In this document: positions 11,110 to 58,507 of the stretch, piece after piece | How the letters are laid out: each line of letters starts with the position of its first letter | Position numbering within the stretch: the first letter of the stretch is position 1 | Assembly (NCBI RefSeq): GCF_900167105.1 | Contig: NZ_FUXE01000009.1 | Coordinates: 1 to 64,000, forward strand | Source of the DNA: Porphyromonas circumdentaria | Lineage (GTDB): Bacteria; Bacteroidota; Bacteroidia; Bacteroidales; Porphyromonadaceae | Reading direction: 5' to 3' | DNA length: 64,000 nucleotides | Program-made: the position numbers and the translations under genes | The notes under the pieces: model-generated | The model's input: the letters and a program-made list of their open reading frames with translations, nothing else | Databases searched by the model: none | Told to the model about the DNA's origin: nothing

Positions 11110-11682
11110 ATGGCAACTAAGATTAGATTGCAGCGTCACGGTCACAAAGGCTATGCCTTCTACAAGATCGTTATCGCAGACAGCAGGGCTCCACGAGATG
11201 GACGATTTATTGAAAGGATAGGTTCTTATAATCCGAACACAAATCCTGCTTCAGTAGATTTGAATTTCGAAAGAGCTCTTTACTGGTTGAGCGTAGGTGC
11301 TATACCTACAGACACGGTTCGTAGCCTTCTCTCTCGCGAAGGAGTACTCCTCAAAAAGCACCTCAACGAAGGTGTCAAGAAGGGTGCTTTCGATCAAGCA
11401 ACTGCAGATCGTCGTTTTGAAGAGTGGCGTAAGAGCAAAATGGACAAACTCAACGAAGTAGTTGCATCTCGCGATGCGAAGAAACGTGAAGAGGCTAAGA
11501 CCCGTCTTGCTGCAGAACAAGAAATCAACAAGGCAAAGGCAACAGAATTAGCTGAAAAGCGTGCTGCCGAAGCCAAGGCTAAAGCTGAAGAAGAAGCAGC
11601 TTTGAATGCAGAAGAAGCTACAGAAGCTCCTGCAGAAGAGGCTCCCGAAGCAGCAGAGGCAGAAGCTCCACAAGCAGAGTAA
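11110..11682 (+). CDS. rpsP: 30S ribosomal protein S16 with long acidic C-terminal tail
   Basis: S16 is an assembly protein of the small ribosomal subunit. The first 85 residues are a standard S16 ([20 protein letters not shown], then [19 protein letters not shown]). The total of 190 residues is about twice that of E. coli S16: a helical, lysine/glutamate-rich section is followed by an Ala/Glu-rich low-complexity tail ([20 protein letters not shown]). Such extensions are usual in Bacteroidota. TACCTTTG at 11039-11046 is a probable -10-like box, though no good TTG lies upstream of it. A terminator follows at 11765-11803. Confidence 0.97.
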
Positions 11683-18580: not shown

Positions 18581-18856
18581 ATGGTTTACTGTATCAACAT
18601 GTTTTAGGGAGGTATTCCTTGGTAGAAAATACTCTATCTCATGTAAAGGTATTCCTTTTATCCGATATAAAAAAATACTTTCTATCCATGAAATAGAGTG
18701 TAATAAAGTTCCCCCTCGTTCCATCATCGTATTTTTAATTTTATTCACTCAAGATTTGTTACAGTTACCCTCCAGATAAACACAGCATAAAAGGTCAATA
18801 TATAACGCCTAAAAGAGAAAATCCTTTATACCATAAAATCAAAAGGTTACGAGCAA

Positions 18857-18948
18857 TTCTTTATTTTCAATCTGCATATATGTATATTCAACTTAAGAAT
18901 AAATATATTCAATCTGAATATATATATATTCAATCTACAAATAAAGAA
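18857..18948. repeat. AT-rich dispersed element, copy A (21-bp units, inverted ends)
   Basis: About 92 bp bounded by TTCTTTATTT on the left and its exact reverse complement AAATAAAGAA on the right. The interior consists of degenerate copies of a unit centred on TATATTCAATCTGAATATA, which is itself an inverted repeat (TATATTCA-ATC-TGAATATA). The same unit and the same right end (CAATCTACAAATAAAGAA) recur at 29864-29956, and the unit recurs at 48336-48436. The form is that of a small MITE holding a minisatellite. Confidence 0.65.
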
Positions 18949-19223
18949 ATGCTTAGGAAGAAATAATTTTTTGTCAAACACCTTTTCCTTTTTTCAATAG
19001 GTAAGATAGAAGATTGTATAAGACGTTTTTACGCCGTTTGAAGTTTTGACACCGTAACAGAGAGGCTTTCCAAAGGCATAGCCCACTCTAACGTTAATTC
19101 TGCCAACGCACATAAAAAGGAAACCATACAGCCTCCAAAGAAATTCTATCATAAACCCAAGCTAAAAAACAACCAGAAAGAAATCTCTAAAAGTATCTCA
19201 TTAGTTATAGGTATGGTCGCTTA

Positions 19224-29152: not shown

Positions 29153-29506
29153 TTACTCTGCAGGTTTTAAGGTTGCACTATCCACGAGAAAGAAAACAAC
29201 CTCTTCTGGTTTTTTGAAGTTAAATTTGGTCCGAGCCACATGCTCCAACTCTGTTTTATCCACAAGATTCCAGTTAAGCTGCACACTGTCCTTACGGAAT
29301 TTCTGCTCCGCTTGCGAGAGTCTCCTCTCGAGCGTTTTGACTCTTTGAGCATACTTCTGGCGAATAAATAGGTTATTATCACCCAAAAGCAAGGAGTACA
29401 AAATCAACAAAACACCTATACCCACAATAACCTTAAACGGATGTCTGCGAGCATAATCCTTGAAATCTCTATAGAGACTCTTGATGCGGTCCTTTTTGTC
29501 TTTCAC
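29153..29506 (-). CDS. FtsB/DivIC-like septum formation initiator protein
   Basis: A bitopic cell division protein of 117 residues. A basic cytosolic N-terminus is followed by one transmembrane helix (VIVGIGVLLILYSLLLG, about 26-42), a periplasmic coiled coil (FIRQKYAQRVKTLERRLSQA) and a conserved end (DKTELEHVARTKFNFKKPEE, VVFFLVD), the pattern of FtsB/DivIC. It would join FtsL and FtsQ/DivIB at the divisome. It is the first gene of the run to dsbD. A TATTTTTG box on minus at 29579-29572 may be its promoter, without a well-spaced TTG. Confidence 0.85.
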   Translation of the reverse strand: MKDKKDRIKSLYRDFKDYARRHPFKVIVGIGVLLILYSLLLGDNNLFIRQKYAQRVKTLERRLSQAEQKFRKDSVQLNWNLVDKTELEHVARTKFNFKKPEEVVFFLVDSATLKPAE

Positions 29507-29863
29507 TCCTACGTTCTCTTTAACTATTACGTTTTTCGGTCTTCCTCCTTATAGGGTAGTTATTTGGTAGGCAAAAATAGCTTTTTCCCCCTATATGGTA
29601 ATAAGGCAAGCAGCATATTAAGCTTTTTTATTCTCTTACCGTTCTACAACAATAACTTTTCAGAGAAAAGCGCGTCACTATGCAGCTAATCGCCTCCACC
29701 TGTCGCAGAGTGAAAGTAAAAAGTATCACAACTATGACATTTGAGTATCCATAAAATCAAGAGAATTAAAGGCTCCCACTATGGGATACTCTGTTCTTAA
29801 CTTCCTTTACTCCTGTGGTAAAGTTCAAAAGCTCCCGACAAAAAGTCGTTTTGCACAGGAAGA

Positions 29864-29956
29864 AATCTCTATTTGCAGGCTGCAAATATATATACTAAGA
29901 TTGAATATATATATATTTAGATTGAATATATATATTTGCAATCTACAAATAAAGAA
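29864..29956. repeat. AT-rich dispersed element, copy B (21-bp units, inverted ends)
   Basis: About 93 bp. The left end (TCTCTATTTGCAGGCTGCAA) and the reverse complement of the right end (TCTTTATTTGTAGATTGCAA) match at 16 of 20 positions, and the match continues into ATATATAT, so the ends form an imperfect inverted repeat of about 28 bp. Inside, the unit AGATTGAATATATATAT occurs twice with a 21-base period. The right end CAATCTACAAATAAAGAA is identical to that of copy A. It lies between the divergent FtsB-like gene and proS. Confidence 0.65.
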
Positions 29957-30315
29957 TTACTCCTAACTTTTTGATCTTATAGTCCCTATTAAAATGCTTT
30001 TTATAAGTAACTTAACTATATTCTTGTGCCATCTCTGTTTTAGTCTTGACAATAAGGTTTGACCTTTTCGGAGCCTACCCTCTTAGAGCATTCTGCACTA
30101 GTTTGGCTAACTACGCCTGAGTTTTTTTCAAATAATCGGCTCTTATCGCTTTTCTATCAGGCGTAAAATAAATGGTTTTTACTAACCGTCTGGAGGAAAA
30201 AGAATATCAAAAATGGCTCAGTTGGCGAACTACTTCAAAAACAGTATTACATATTCTCGCTTCTTTCTACTAATTTTGTGGGATATAAGTAAGTCTATAG
30301 TAACTAAGTACATTT
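29957..30315. other. Intergenic region upstream of proS
   Basis: No coding frame with protein character. ACGCCTGA (30113-30120) and TCAGGCGT (30157-30164) are exact inverted repeats 36 bases apart; the reason is unknown. TAATTTTG at 30271-30278 fits the -10-like box of a Bacteroidota promoter for proS, but no TTG lies at the right distance. I see no tRNA. The other part of this gap, 29507-29863, also shows nothing except a possible promoter box for the FtsB-like gene. Confidence 0.45.
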
Positions 30316-31797
30316 ATGGCTAAAGAAATCAAAGAGCTAACCCCTCGTAGTGAAAGCTACTCACAGTGGTATCAAGATTTGGTAACAAAAGCAGACTTGG
30401 CAGAGAACTCCGCGGTGCGTGGCTGTATGGTAATCAAGCCTTATGGCTATGCTATCTGGGAAAAGATGCAACAAGAGTTGGATCGTCGTTTCAAAGAAAC
30501 AGGGCACGTGAATGCCTACTTCCCTCTTTTTATACCGAAAAGCTACCTCAGTAGAGAGGCTGATCACGTAGAAGGCTTCGCCAAAGAGTGTGCCGTAGTA
30601 ACACATTATAGGCTAAAGAACGCACCCGACGGGAGCGGAGTGATAGTAGACCCAGAGGCTAAGTTGGAGGAAGAACTCATCGTACGTCCGACATCAGAAA
30701 CCATTATCTGGAGTACCTATAAAGATTGGATACAAAGCTATCGAGACCTACCGATACTCTGCAATCAATGGGCTAACGTAGTACGTTGGGAAATGCGCAC
30801 CCGTCTCTTTCTCCGCACAGCAGAATTTCTGTGGCAAGAGGGACACACAGCACACGAAACAGAGGCAGAAGCTGTAGAAGAAGCACGTAAGATGCTACAC
30901 GTTTATGCAGACTTTGCCGAGAAAGTACTGGCCGTACCTGTAATTTGTGGTGTTAAAAGCGAGACCGAACGCTTTGCAGGAGCTATCGACACTTATACCA
31001 TAGAAGCTCTCATGCAAGATGGTAAGGCTTTACAATCGGGGACTTCTCACTTCTTGGGGCAGAACTTTGCAAAAGCTTTCGACGTACAATTCCTGAATAA
31101 AGAGGGTAAGAGAGAGTACGTATGGGCTACCTCTTGGGGGGTTTCTACCCGCCTTATGGGGGCTCTGATTATGTCACACTCCGACGATAACGGATTGGTA
31201 TTACCTCCCACACTGGCTCCGCTGCAAGTAGTGGTGGTACCTATCTACAAAACGGATGAGAACCTCAAGGAAATCCACGATAAGATAGCCCCCGTTCTTG
31301 GGGAGTGTCGCAAGCGTGGCATCAGCATCAAATTTGATGACAGCAATAATAAAAAACCCGGTTGGAAGTTTGCAGAGTACGAACTCAAGGGAGTGCCCGT
31401 TCGCTTAGCTATCGGAGCTCGAGACTTGGAACAGGGTACCGTAGAGGTTGCTCGTCGAGACACATTGACCAAAGAGACCGTACCTCTGGAAGGTATCTGC
31501 GACCACATCGAGCAACTACTCAAAGATATTCAAGAAAACATCTACCAAAAAGCCCTTAACTATCGCGAAGCAAACACTCGTACCGTAGAGACCTACGAAG
31601 AGTTCAAAACAGAGATAGAAAAAGGAGGCTTTATATTGGCACACTGGGATGGTACGCCAGAAACAGAGGCTCGCATAAAGGAAGAAACAAAAGCTACTAT
31701 ACGCTGTATTCCTCTAAACGGAGACCCTACCCCTGGTGTTTGTATGGTAACGGGGAAACCCTCTAAGTGCAGAGTTCTTTTTGCTCGTGCTTACTAA
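30316..31797 (+). CDS. proS: Proline--tRNA ligase, archaeal/eukaryotic type
   Basis: ProS charges tRNA-Pro with proline in the cytosol. At 493 residues and without the editing insertion, it is of the short archaeal/eukaryal-like class. Class II motifs are visible: motif 1 region [20 protein letters not shown], motif 2 around [20 protein letters not shown] with EGHTAH, and motif 3 around [20 protein letters not shown]. The anticodon-binding domain follows ([12 protein letters not shown]), and the C-terminal zinc-type domain is present ([20 protein letters not shown]), ending in AY as in this class. It stands alone with a terminator behind it. Confidence 0.97.
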
Positions 31798-46842: not shown

Positions 46843-48144
46843 CTATTTCACATCTACAGTTTCGCCCTGTATAAAATCAAGATAATCCTTTAGATGACGC
46901 TCCGAAGCTCCCGTTGATTGAGGATAATAGAATCTAATATCTCTCGCTTTATCGGGCATATACTCCTGTTGCACATAATGTCGATCGTAGTCGTGAGGAT
47001 ATTTATAATCTTCCCCATATCCCAAACTTTCCATAAGCTCGGTAGGAGCATTACGGAGGTGCATAGGAACAGGCAGATTACCCGTTTCTCGCACATATTT
47101 GAGAGTACTATTGATAGCCATGTAGGCAGAATTACTTTTGGGAGAAGCAGCCAAGTAAATAACAGCTTCGGCCAACGGTATACGCCCCTCAGGCCACCCG
47201 ATAAAATCAACCGCCTGTGCAGCAGCATTGGCTATAACTAAGGCGTTCGGATTGGCTAACCCAATATCTTCGGCAGCAGAAATCACAATACGCCTTGCTA
47301 TAAAGCGAGGATTCTCTCCCCCCTCTATCAATCTTCCCATCCAATAGAGTGCTGCATCGGGATTACTCCCTCTAATACTTTTGATAAATGCGGAGGCTAT
47401 ATCGTAGTGCAATTCGCCCCCTTTATCAAAAGCCATAGGCTGACGAGCGACCGTAGCCTCTACCAACTGATTGTCTACGATTAAAGGCGTTTGTGGCGAA
47501 GAGCTTACAAGCATCTCCAACAGATTGAGCAATTTGCGAGCGTCTCCGCCAGAGTAGGCAATAAGACGCGCATCTTCCCTTAGCTCTATTCTTCGTGCTT
47601 TGAGAAGTGTATCTGTTGTAATGGCTCTCTGTAAAAGACACCTAAGCTCCTCTTCTCCCAAAGGATTAAGAACAAAGACCTGACAACGTGATAAAAGGGG
47701 ACGTATAATTTCAAAAGAGGGATTCTCGGTTGTAGCTCCGATAAGGGTTACTAAACCACGCTCCACGGCAGCCAAAAGAGAGTCTTGCTGGCTTTTTGAA
47801 AAACGATGGATTTCATCTATGAAAAGTAAGGGTCTACTCTTAGTAGCAAAGAGCCCAGAGGTTACTTGGGCAGCTTCTTCCAAAACCTTACGTACCTCGG
47901 CAACTCCCGACCCCACGGCACTAAGTTTGTAGAAAGGAGCTTCGACCGAGAGAGCCAGAAGTTCGGCCAAAGTAGTCTTTCCCACTCCTGGAGGTCCCCA
48001 GAGAATAAGAGAGGGTATTGTTCCCGAGCGAATCATACGCCCCAAAGAAGAATCTGCATCGGTCAAATGTTGCTGCCCCACATACTCCTCTAAAGACTTC
48101 GGACGCATCCGCTCTGCTAAAGGTTTGTACTCTACCCTTTCCAT
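46843..48144 (-). CDS. rarA: Replication-associated recombination protein A (MgsA/WRNIP1 type)
   Basis: A 433-residue AAA+ ATPase acting at stalled replication forks. It begins with PLAERMRPKSLEEYVGQQHL, Walker A LWGPPGVGKTTLAELLA (about 49-65), Walker B PLLFIDEIHRFSK, sensor 1 IGATTENPSFEI, and the C-terminal family section (FIKSIRGSNPDAALYWMGRL; PKSNSAYMAIN; LRNAPTELMESLGYGEDYKY). It is the first gene of the run to the thioesterase. A TACCTTTG box on minus (48180-48173) is the probable -10-like element. Confidence 0.96.
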   Translation of the reverse strand: MERVEYKPLAERMRPKSLEEYVGQQHLTDADSSLGRMIRSGTIPSLILWGPPGVGKTTLAELLALSVEAPFYKLSAVGSGVAEVRKVLEEAAQVTSGLFATKSRPLLFIDEIHRFSKSQQDSLLAAVERGLVTLIGATTENPSFEIIRPLLSRCQVFVLNPLGEEELRCLLQRAITTDTLLKARRIELREDARLIAYSGGDARKLLNLLEMLVSSSPQTPLIVDNQLVEATVARQPMAFDKGGELHYDIASAFIKSIRGSNPDAALYWMGRLIEGGENPRFIARRIVISAAEDIGLANPNALVIANAAAQAVDFIGWPEGRIPLAEAVIYLAASPKSNSAYMAINSTLKYVRETGNLPVPMHLRNAPTELMESLGYGEDYKYPHDYDRHYVQQEYMPDKARDIRFYYPQSTGASERHLKDYLDFIQGETVDVK

Positions 48145-48335
48145 TGAAAAACAAGTTATTTCTTACCTTTCGCAAAGGTAATTATAACTCTTCACACATT
48201 AAAAGCAGGAGGGGAAGTTATACTGTAAGTATGGGAAAACAGTTCGATTACTATCTTTTGCATCAATGGTAAAGTTATCCTACACGTATGGAAAAACTCT
48301 TTTAGTCTCATGAAGAAATTCATAAAGACTCGTGC

Positions 48336-48436
48336 AAATCTATATATTCAATCTCAAAATACATATATTCAAGCTAAATATACATATATGCAATCTGAAT
48401 ATATATATACTAAGATTGAATATAGAAAAAAGAATA
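48336..48436. repeat. AT-rich dispersed element, copy C (21-bp units)
   Basis: About 100 bp built from four degenerate units with a 21-base period (ATATATTCAATCTCAAAA, ATATATTCAAGCTAAATA, ATATATGCAATCTGAATA, then AAGATTGAATATA in reverse). The first and last units are opposed (CTATATATTCAATCT against AGATTGAATATAG), giving an overall inverted symmetry as in copies A and B, but the TTCTTTATTT ends are not well kept. Edges are approximate. Confidence 0.55.
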
Positions 48437-48533
48437 GATGTTCAGCAATTTTAGATCGTTTCCATCCATTTTTTAGAGTGTTAGAAGAACTTTTTCGGGA
48501 GCTGAATAATAATCGCGCTTTGGACAAATCCAC

Positions 48534-48565
48534 AAAAAACCCCTATACCGTTGGTATAGAGGTTT
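48534..48565 (-). terminator. Terminator of the nad operon
   Basis: AAACCCCTATACC and GGTATAGAGGTTT form a 13-bp stem with one mismatch around GTT; on the minus strand it is followed by a T-run (complement of AAAAAA at 48534-48539). It lies 48 bases after the nadA stop. Confidence 0.85.
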
Positions 48566-48612
48566 CTCAGTGTAAAAGGAGTAATCCCAAACTAAAGCAT
48601 ACAGACAAGGTA

Positions 48613-49560
48613 TTAGTGAATGGATAACATCCTTTGAATGGGTAATAAAGCCTTAGAACGTATCTCCTCGGGAACCGTAACCTCGTAGCGCATATATTTC
48701 AAAGCATCTCGAAGATCTTCGAGCGTGGTCAGCTTCATGTATTCACAGCGATGCTCGGGAGCTATCGGGATAAAAGTTCTATCGGGATAGCGGCGAGCCA
48801 ACTCAACAATGGCCTCCGCTTCTGTAGCTATGACAAACTCCTTTTTGTCCGTTTTCTGTGGATGCTCCAAGATACCCGATGTGGAGCCTACAAAGCAACG
48901 CGGATGAGATAGAATTGCTTCGTCATTGCAGGCTACAGACTCGGGGTGTATAAGCACATCAGCCTCGGGATATTCATCAAGAAAAGCCTGTATAAGTTCA
49001 CTTGTTATATGACGATGCACATAGCAATCGCCCTGCCAAAGTTCCATAGTACGCCCCGTTTTCTGCATAATATAAGCCCCTAAATTACGATCAGGTCCAA
49101 AAAGTATAGGGCAATCTTTGGGTAAAGACTCTATTACCTTGAGGGCATTAGATGAGGTTACACAATAGTCGGTTTCTGCTTTTACCTCGGCAGAAGTATT
49201 AACATAGCTCACAATCAAGCCATTGGGGTGATACTTCTTCCATGTAGCTAATCCCGCAGCAGTGGCACTCTCTGCCAAGGTACACCCTGCGTTTTGAGCG
49301 GGGATTAAAACCCTTTTCTGGGGAGATATAATAGAAGCTGTCTCTGCCATAAAATGTACACCGCAGAAGACAATAATATCGGCATCTGTGGTTCCCGCTT
49401 TTTGAGACAAAGCCAGTGAATCTCCCAAAAAATCGGCAGCCGCCTGCACTTCGGGGCGCGCATAGTAATGCGCCAAAACAATAGCGTTATGCTGCTTTTT
49501 CAGGGCATTTATCTCTTCGTACAAAGCTGAGAAATCCTCTTTCGTCGTTGTCGGTATCAT
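48613..49560 (-). CDS. nadA: Quinolinate synthase
   Basis: NadA condenses iminoaspartate from NadB with dihydroxyacetone phosphate to give quinolinate, using a 4Fe-4S cluster. The 315-residue protein shows NAIVLAHYYARPEVQAAADF, the cysteines in IIVFCGVHFMAETASI (about 90), in PESVACNDEAILSHPRCFVG (about 210) and in PEHRCEYMKLTTLEDL (about 278), and VSYVNTSAEVKAETDYCVTS. The three cluster ligands appear intact. It is the third gene of nadB-nadC-nadA, 35 bases after nadC. Confidence 0.96.
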   Translation of the reverse strand: MIPTTTKEDFSALYEEINALKKQHNAIVLAHYYARPEVQAAADFLGDSLALSQKAGTTDADIIVFCGVHFMAETASIISPQKRVLIPAQNAGCTLAESATAAGLATWKKYHPNGLIVSYVNTSAEVKAETDYCVTSSNALKVIESLPKDCPILFGPDRNLGAYIMQKTGRTMELWQGDCYVHRHITSELIQAFLDEYPEADVLIHPESVACNDEAILSHPRCFVGSTSGILEHPQKTDKKEFVIATEAEAIVELARRYPDRTFIPIAPEHRCEYMKLTTLEDLRDALKYMRYEVTVPEEIRSKALLPIQRMLSIH

Positions 49561-56784: not shown

Positions 56785-58507
56785 GTACTAATCGCACTAT
56801 AATAGAATTGAAACTTCTTGTAGTATTTAGCAAGATTTTCGACAATGAGTACTAATCGCACTATAATAGAATTGAAACGGGTTGGGACTTGTGTTAAGAG
56901 AAGTAAAAGATACGTACTAATCGCACTATAATAGAATTGAAACCCTTTTGACAATAACTTTACAGAGACTTATATAAGGTACTAATCGCACTATAATAGA
57001 ATTGAAACTCTCTAAGTGTGTTACATACACATCTTTAGGGTACCGTACTAATCGCACTATAATAGAATTGAAACCGCGAAGCGCGGAGCGAAAAAAATGT
57101 TCTGCCTCTGTACTAATCGCACTATAATAGAATTGAAACTAAACTTCAATCATGATTATTTCATGGGGTGTTTTAGTACTAATCGCACTATAATAGAATT
57201 GAAACGATATAAGCATGACTATGTATGTTCTTTCTTTCTTAAGTACTAATCGCACTATAATAGAATTGAAACTGTTAATCCTTTCTGCGTGTTTCTTAGC
57301 TATATCAGTACTAATCGCACTATAATAGAATTGAAACCTATTGAGGCTATCTCTAAGAAGCTTGTCGATGAGTACTAATCGCACTATAATAGAATTGAAA
57401 CTTGCAGACCCCCTCTACTGCTATTTATGACGGCATGGTACTAATCGCACTATAATAGAATTGAAACCTCTTGACCTTTCAACCGCTTCAGCTATCTATA
57501 TGTACTAATCGCACTATAATAGAATTGAAACTAAGCATAGATACAGACTTCTGTATCGCAAGAGTGTACTAATCGCACTATAATAGAATTGAAACTGATT
57601 TAGTTGTAATGGTAGGGAAGTTTGTAGGGCGTACTAATCGCACTATAATAGAATTGAAACAAGCGATTGTGTAATTCGAGTACTAAATTCTTGTAGTACT
57701 AATCGCACTATAATAGAATTGAAACCGAGTTTGATAAAAGACTTGGAGGGCTCGGGGCGATAGTACTAATCGCACTATAATAGAATTGAAACATTATGTA
57801 GCCATGCTCTTTTACTTCGAGGTTAAGTACTAATCGCACTATAATAGAATTGAAACCTAACCCTCGCTCGTTACAGCGAGTTTACAATAAGTACTAATCG
57901 CACTATAATAGAATTGAAACATATGCCTTAAAAGGAAGCGCGGCTATACGCTTGGTACTAATCGCACTATAATAGAATTGAAACAAAATCCTCTGACATA
58001 AAATTACCGCAACATAAGTGTACTAATCGCACTATAATAGAATTGAAACTCCTTAATAAACATGAGATAAGAAGGTTTGACATACGTACTAATCGCACTA
58101 TAATAGAATTGAAACTCAAGGCTCGCCTGCTGGTAAGATTGCGAACAATGTACTAATCGCACTATAATAGAATTGAAACTTTTGCAATGTGTCAAAATGG
58201 CAATAGCGCGCTTCGTACTAATCGCACTATAATAGAATTGAAACTGTTCCCTCAAACCCCGTAGGAGCAGAAGAGGTAGAGTACTAATCGCACTATAATA
58301 GAATTGAAACGACTTTGGGCTGCTGGGTATCCCTTTATTTTTAGGTGGTACTAATCGCACTATAATAGAATTGAAACCCTAAAAGCGCGAGATGGACGGA
58401 TGTTACCAGGATTGTACTAATCGCACTATAATAGAATTGAAACGGATTGAAGCGGAAGAGCTCTTCCCGCCCCTCTGGTACTAATCGCACTATAATAGAA
58501 TTGAAAC
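56785..58507 (+). CRISPR. CRISPR array, 27 identical 30-bp repeats, 26 spacers
   Basis: The repeat is 30 bp, GTACTAATCG-CACTATAATA-GAATTGAAAC, and every one of the 27 copies appears identical, including the last (58478-58507). Spacers are 34-37 bp (repeat starts 56785, 56849, 56914, 56979, 57045, 57110, 57176, 57243 and on to 58478). The GAATTGAAAC end is the 5' handle form (ATTGAAAC) found in class 1 systems, mainly I-B and III. This and the promoter at 56749 place the leader on the left. Transcript would be plus strand. No cas gene lies between 1 and 64000, so the interference and adaptation proteins must be elsewhere. All 26 spacers differ by eye. Confidence 0.98.

Follow-up and report, generated by a model that had tools for sequence, protein, structure and literature searches.

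HU-family proteins are textbook low-specificity architectural proteins; clades of HU and IHF have reportedly been delineated by Burroughs et al. IHF has the HU fold, recognizes sequence-specific sites and bends DNA; its sites are single and asymmetric, and it has no winged helix. The elements described here would share with IHF an HU-fold reader and specific, bent sites, but they consist of phased palindrome tetrads with a separate sequence for each paralogue. Dispersed specific palindromes with an architectural reader are known from MatP-matS, ParB-parS and Noc, all of them single sites. Here, in contrast, the palindromes are grouped in phased arrays that observe a minimum spacing, and nothing related to those proteins is involved. 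AspA, the centromere-binding protein of pNOB8, is a winged-helix protein acting on the repeated palindromes of a plasmid centromere. Besides this plasmid setting, it differs from the reader proposed here in having no HU domain, and its structure (5k5q) was only a weak Foldseek match.

That reader belongs to the HU-HIG or HU_rel family (PF18291, TIGR01201). The family entries describe proteins only, and in the open-access literature we found no paper that assigns DNA sites to HU-HIG proteins or links HU_rel proteins to arrays. In the same genus, the HU-family protein PG0121 of P. gingivalis has been studied on DNA; the accessible parts of that work describe binding that is largely non-discriminating, perhaps with some preference for a 77-bp inverted repeat, and report no phased arrays (PMC3969353).

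A repeat of similar design, BrickBuilt, was published from P. gingivalis as a 23-nt minisatellite within a MITE that has IS-like TIRs, a leader and a tail. As far as the available portions of the paper go, it exists in 19 copies with 1 to 22.8 units each, and the words histone, HU family, IHF and nucleoid are absent from the text (PMC4596501). The P. gingivalis resequencing paper, in its accessible part, also treats these repeats as MITEs. The family described here is likewise intergenic and dispersed, with tandem units near two helix turns, whereas BrickBuilt has a 23-nt unit (AGAYCATARTATCCTCTCRTRTG) with leader and tail in place of four 21-bp units of unrelated sequence.

A dispersed family of four-unit palindrome arrays

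The window, i. e. the whole stretch of 64,000 nucleotides that was analyzed, was initially annotated with a small element at 18857-18948 that has exact 10-bp inverted ends around an internal palindromic unit, and with two further intergenic copies. The inverted ends are exact: TTCTTTATTT lies at 18857-18866 and its exact reverse complement at 18939-18948, and this 10-mer occurs at four places in the window against 0.48 expected. The palindromic unit is present as well (TATATTCAATCTGAATATA at 18904-18922), but there are four 21-bp units per array and not one. TATATTCAATCTGAATATA is an imperfect palindrome with 8-bp arms and an asymmetric three-base centre, ATC. With up to three mismatches allowed it occurs at 10 places in the window, where 0.04 are expected, and these group into three arrays (A, B and C) of 96 bp each, all located between genes.

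The core of copy A, four 21-bp palindromic units between the inverted ends, spans 18855-18950 on the plus strand and thus encloses 18857-18948. It lies between the divergent glmS and hemerythrin-domain genes. Together with 22-bp-phased A/T blocks of about 65-70 bp per side the whole element covers 18785-19020, the outer limits being approximate. Copy B has four units at 29863-29958 on the minus strand (29793-30028 with its phased flanks, again with approximate outer limits), between the divergent divIC-like (29153-29506, minus) and proS (30316-31797, plus) genes. The four units of copy C occupy 48336-48431 on the minus strand (approximately 48266-48501 with phased flanks), between an MgsA/RarA-type AAA gene (46843-48144) and nadA (48613-49560). 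Both of these genes are on the minus strand, and copy C is therefore upstream of the MgsA/RarA-type gene. A mechanically called ORF of 105 aa (48310-48627, plus) overlaps copy C and is taken as spurious.

The whole-genome search proposed with the initial annotation returned 66 exact matches of TATATTCAATCT against none for the reversed control, and 186 matches of the relaxed unit against one. In the 2.03-Mb, 35-contig genome that holds the window we counted 74 copies, which may miss a few, as 118 of 727 candidates were scored in the first look. The loci read initially also numbered 74 (26 from exact matches after four duplicates were dropped, 48 from further matches). Of these, 69 matched the core profile at 24 bits or more, three matched weakly (L028, L143, L159) and two did not match (L142 and L149, single 12-mers in apparently coding stretches). 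The final set of 74 consists of the 69 profile matches, L028 and four copies found with a sequence-only model.

Four palindromic units on a 21-bp pitch, corresponding to two helix turns, are present in 72 of the 74 copies. By direct recount of the units, 68 copies have four without any indel and four have four plus one extra base; the exceptions are L141 (G000:C23:13767) with three core units and L028 (G000:C20:18413) with one. These two look as if whole 21-bp units had been lost. The symmetric four-unit pattern gave 65 matches per strand and none in the control. The core is flanked by A-tracts and T-tracts that repeat about every 22 bp as far as about 65 bp out on either side (AAA at -65, -43, -21, 106, 128 and 150; TTT at -57, -35, -13, 114, 136 and 157), which makes the whole element about 230 bp long and roughly dyad-symmetric. 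Column conservation over 65 copies drops to zero past about -80/+70 of the core. The copies vary in sequence but hardly in length or phase. In a sub-type of about 13 of 65 copies (L150, L170, L134, L016, L015, L021 and others) A-tracts replace the T-tracts of the right flank.

Among 26 genomes of the genus, the unit sequence is nearly confined to the genome of the window. A scan of the genome collection gave at least 93 stretches, nearly all of them single matches in unrelated AT-rich genomes, which we take as chance; the informative one among the matches listed was in P. gingivicanis (L066). With a model of the whole core, however, the same architecture was found at E<1e-5 in six other Porphyromonas genomes, G005 (P. 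gingivalis, at least 4 loci), G006 (P. gingivicanis), G007, G008, G014 and G019, and more weakly in nine further ones. Between species, length, pitch and linkers are kept whereas the palindrome is replaced by a species-specific one: CCAAAGGCTTTGG with TTTTCCGGCCGGAAAA flanks in G005 and G007, TCAAGACTTGA with TTTAGACGTCTAAA flanks in G014 and TTCAACTTGAA in G019. These versions are richer in GC.

Two observations on these genomes stand apart. The 22-bp-phased flanks carry palindromes unlike that of the core (TTTTCCGGCCGGAAAA in L232-L238 of G005 and G007, TTTAGACGTCTAAA in L239-L241 of G014). The flank palindromes CCGGCCGG (G005) and GACGTC (G014) are unaccounted for by the core reader proposed below, and possibly a second protein reads them. 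P. gingivicanis also has a second dispersed 22-bp family, AAGG(G/A)TTAATGG/CC (AAGGGTTAATGG), in 15 of the 85 long intergenic regions read (L371-L390 on G006:C35, e. g. L371:12347-13076 and L381:14742-15550). No array matching AAGGGTTAATGG was found upstream of the HU_rel genes of G006 that were read.

Several known repeat classes were considered by their motifs. ARG boxes were dropped on account of a different half-site spacing and Bacteroidetes promoters on account of a wrong spacing; CRISPR, iterons, REP/BIME and attC were dropped as well. Elsewhere in the window, at 57240-58180, tandem copies of a 30-bp repeat (GTACTAATCGCACTATAATAGAATTGAAAC), separated by spacers of some 35 bp, resemble a CRISPR array.

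HU_rel genes and their upstream arrays

When the neighbors of the element were compared across species, one protein family recurred, HU_rel or HU-HIG. The element adjoins an HU_rel gene in the genome of the window (L128), in G006 (L247) and in G019 (L242), and a family search added G005 and G007, where an HU_rel gene follows immediately after a copy. Five of the seven genomes hence have one copy immediately preceding a long HU_rel gene. In the remaining two, G014 and G008, the array upstream of the long HU_rel gene has, by eye, the motif of the dispersed copies; at L282 of G008 the upstream periodicity was not significant. TIGR01201 has 3 to 17 matches per Porphyromonas genome, ordinary HU genes included.

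The gene at L128 (G000:C17:10799, outside the window) encodes a protein of 202 aa that matches TIGR01201 with an E-value of 2.3e-28 and has one array directly upstream. Its structure, predicted from 19 aligned sequences (alignment A2) with a mean pLDDT of 84 and a pTM of 0.53, comprises an HU-type half, a winged helix and, between them, a hinge that is poorly predicted. The best Foldseek matches of this model were 4fmr, a B. vulgatus HU-like protein of unknown role, HU and IHF, and winged helices of the ArsR/MarR type. The L128 protein is thus predicted to have an HU/IHF-type domain followed by a winged helix-turn-helix at the C terminus. For L143, the second long HU_rel protein of this genome, the Pfam and NCBIfam winged-helix models matched weakly, below their cut-offs. 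The array upstream of the L143 gene carries a different 21-bp palindrome, four times. Apart from its own array, the L143-type unit was seen at two single sites, L159 (G000:C29:49760, a weak locus) and G000:C27:41410.

Upstream periodicity was tested in the 550 bp preceding 46 HU_rel genes of the genus, six of them known via the element and 40 from a longer list. Periods of 12-31 were allowed, and a region was called significant if its self-match exceeded all 100 Markov nulls. This was the case for 29 of the 46 genes, and for 23 of the 40 without those known via the element; the period was 21-24 bp in 27 of the 29. In other Bacteroidales families 7 of 20 HU_rel genes had a periodic upstream region, with a period of 21 or 22 bp in six and of 28 in the seventh, so that 33 of 36 periodic regions in total fall at 21-24 bp. 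No significant upstream array was present at the other 17 genes of the genus and 13 outside it. The control, 49 upstream regions of the window not overlapping the three elements or the CRISPR-like array, gave one periodic region (14 of 67 in the unfiltered set). This sole control match is a 24-bp coding repeat rich in GCAGAAGAAGCT at 11560-11680 of the window, at the end of the ORF 11110-11682.

The period differs with the length of the protein. Thirteen of the 29 genes encode long proteins (at least 195 aa, HU plus winged helix), with periods of 21 bp in nine, 22 in three and 27 in one, where 21 came next. The other 16 encode short proteins, with periods of 22-24 bp in 15, 14 in one and never 21; several short HU_rel proteins have a Gly-rich tail. 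Among 35 arrays picked for their signal, 31 have four or five units (18 and 13, respectively) and 24 are palindromic at P<=0.05. Mostly, these arrays carry a sequence of their own. By eye, a shared recognition helix goes with a shared site (L128/L247, L235/L238, L286/L288, L289/L291) and two paralogues of one genome that differ in the helix also differ in the site (L128/L143), although the agreement between species partly reflects shared ancestry because a gene and its adjacent array are inherited together. Individual sequences can be dispersed as well: in G005 AAACGTCTAGACGTTT, belonging to the HU_rel gene at 1825857, occurs at 2 loci and AAACTATATAGTTTGG, belonging to the one at 1574605, at 5 loci.

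BrickBuilt enters the picture at this point. Its unit has 217 matches in G005 against none in the control, and comparison with the published unit identified the array upstream of the P. gingivalis HU_rel gene G005:961559 as BrickBuilt on the other strand. Judging from gene order, this is evidently BrickBuilt_14, in the available portions of the paper the shortest of the 19 copies (84 nt), located between PGN_0871 and PGN_0872, the latter labelled 'DNA-binding protein (PF00216)' (PMC4596501). The likeness in design between the two families noted at the outset thus goes deeper: each represents the type of array that precedes HU_rel genes.

Binding array, regulon or mobile element

Phased palindromes, a protein that would recognize and probably bend them, and gene adjacency across genomes together make a binding array with autoregulation the best reading. 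We consider it probable, on sequence grounds, that the element is the dispersed cognate binding array of an HU-HIG (HU plus winged-helix) protein, autoregulatory at the protein's own gene and regulatory or architectural elsewhere. The alternative of a regulator binding array raised in the initial annotation is supported, as is the multi-copy and tightly organized nature of the family. Dimers of the L128 protein would read the four palindromes, which at two helix turns apart would lie on one face of the DNA. The HU parts would bend the DNA into a wrapped nucleoprotein knot of fixed size, which may reach over the 22-bp-phased flanks. The array just upstream of the L128 gene should autoregulate that gene. 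The remaining 73, which keep at least 8.6 kb from one another and frequently sit in long intergenic stretches ahead of genes, would serve as regulatory or chromosome-organizing stations. Each HU_rel paralogue with an array would read its own sequence; hence the sequence of the sites would change between species while number, pitch and palindromy stay. The role of the dispersed copies is the least certain part.

These copies could also be the operators of a plain, large transcription-factor regulon, with the HU_rel protein as a local regulator and no architectural role. We regard this as somewhat doubtful, though it shares the binding claim with the preferred reading and the confidence in the two overlaps. 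It would fit the winged-helix domain of the reader and the position of arrays upstream of genes: as judged with a simple ORF caller, whose small spurious ORFs blur the counts, 31 of the 66 copies with both neighbors lie between divergent genes, 27 between tandem and 8 between convergent ones, and the excess of divergent contexts over the intergenic regions of G006 is significant (P=0.0013). However, 200-400 bp typically separate an array from the closest ORF, the intergenic regions being long, and the named neighbors of the window copies (glmS, hemerythrin, divIC-like, proS, nadA, MgsA/RarA-like) have no common theme.

The spacing of the copies is also unexpected for a regulon. The 74 copies on 21 contigs define 53 gaps, the smallest of which is 8,579 bp. 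None of the 53 is under 8.5 kb, a threshold picked after the data were seen; with uniform placement 17.3 such gaps are expected on average and never fewer than 7 occurred in 5,000 trials. The smallest-gap test, which is independent of this threshold, was likewise passed by none of 5,000 trials. With placement limited to long intergenic regions (modeled on G006) 11.5-13.3 short gaps are expected (P about 1e-6). The copies thus repel each other at short range. Otherwise the gaps vary as much as under random placement (CV 0.91 versus 0.94, P 0.42, for 70 copies), without even spacing; the median gap is about 18 kb, and two stretches of more than 110 kb have no listed copy. The floor was established for the species of the window, whereas gaps between arrays of the 22-bp motif in G006 go down to 3.7 kb. 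We infer that, with such a floor, a role in architecture or insulation is more likely than a plain regulon; the floor could also stem from target immunity of an old mobile element.

Such an element, a MITE, would be bounded by terminal inverted repeats, contain a minisatellite and, as a non-autonomous transposon, be spread by a transposase in trans. The family is short (a 96-bp core, about 230 bp with flanks), non-coding, multi-copy (74 places), intergenic and AT-rich, and its core ends are inverted. The published description of BrickBuilt, at least in the accessible portions of the paper, is that of a MITE with IS-like TIRs (PMC4596501), and some P. gingivalis arrays resemble copies of one another. 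Moreover, the G006 counterparts of the intergenic regions of copies A and C are shorter and array-free (531 versus 201 bp for A, 468 versus 162 bp for C), albeit too diverged for junctions to be visible.

Nevertheless, we consider this reading improbable. The number of units is nearly fixed, no pair of copies lies within the spacing floor, and where sharp common edges would support mobility, conservation tapers off across the phased A/T blocks. A recent burst would leave near-identical copies, but the cores have a mean identity of 73% (5-95% range 63-82%, highest 92%), which argues for old or constrained copies. Furthermore, the palindrome is swapped between species while the architecture is kept, five of the seven genomes have one copy beside an HU_rel gene, and BrickBuilt_14 is too short for a leader and a tail of the usual length. 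Mobility of the element is thus not supported, although it may have been mobile in the past; in P. gingivalis, a MITE could have been the carrier of arrays.

Very little speaks for a hairpin function of the palindromes in RNA or in single strands, as terminators or as attC-like or REP-like elements, although each unit is able to form a small hairpin. Mutual information over all column pairs was strongest for the ATC/GAT flip of the three-base centre, and no arm-to-arm Watson-Crick covariation stood out among the 45 top column pairs of 65 copies (these and the column statistics include L141, which alignment A1 with its 64 rows omits). This would fit a site read by a protein better than an RNA or cruciform hairpin, and convergent gene pairs, moreover, are the rarest context. 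Ordinary AT-rich promoter DNA, to which a sequence confined to three places without sharp edges would have been assigned, shares the base composition only and is refuted by 74 copies in the genome, 186 relaxed matches against one in the control, the constancy of length and phase and the GC-richer versions of other species.

Possible significance for the Bacteroidales chromosome

The array-free regions of G006 at copies A and C imply that copies are gained or lost over species time and that stations are not essential at those genes. We had considered that stations keep their places between species. In the orthologous intergenic regions of G006 the 22-bp motif, which was picked from those regions, is present in 9 of 15 versus 6 of 70 regions of at least 250 bp (P=4e-5). 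An unbiased periodicity test of the same regions showed no enrichment (3 of 15 versus 14 of 70), and the idea was dropped.

A tentative but serious possibility is that Bacteroidales have a code-like chromosome-organizing system, in which HU-HIG proteins each have their own phased palindrome tetrad upstream of their gene, copied to stations on the chromosome. The code would be rewritten between species while the geometry stays, in the Porphyromonas of the window one protein would have taken over the whole chromosome, and MITE minisatellites of the BrickBuilt type would belong to the system as further stations. Since many HU_rel genes have their own array, what has passed for a jumping element may in fact be a chromosome-wide protein-docking system. 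If this is true, DNA targets would be supplied for the TIGR01201 family, for which the literature searched names none, BrickBuilt would be re-explained, and HU_rel genes would be predicted to have four palindromes upstream. It would also mean that Bacteroidales possess a sequence-addressed chromosome architecture or regulation by means of paralogue-specific arrays.
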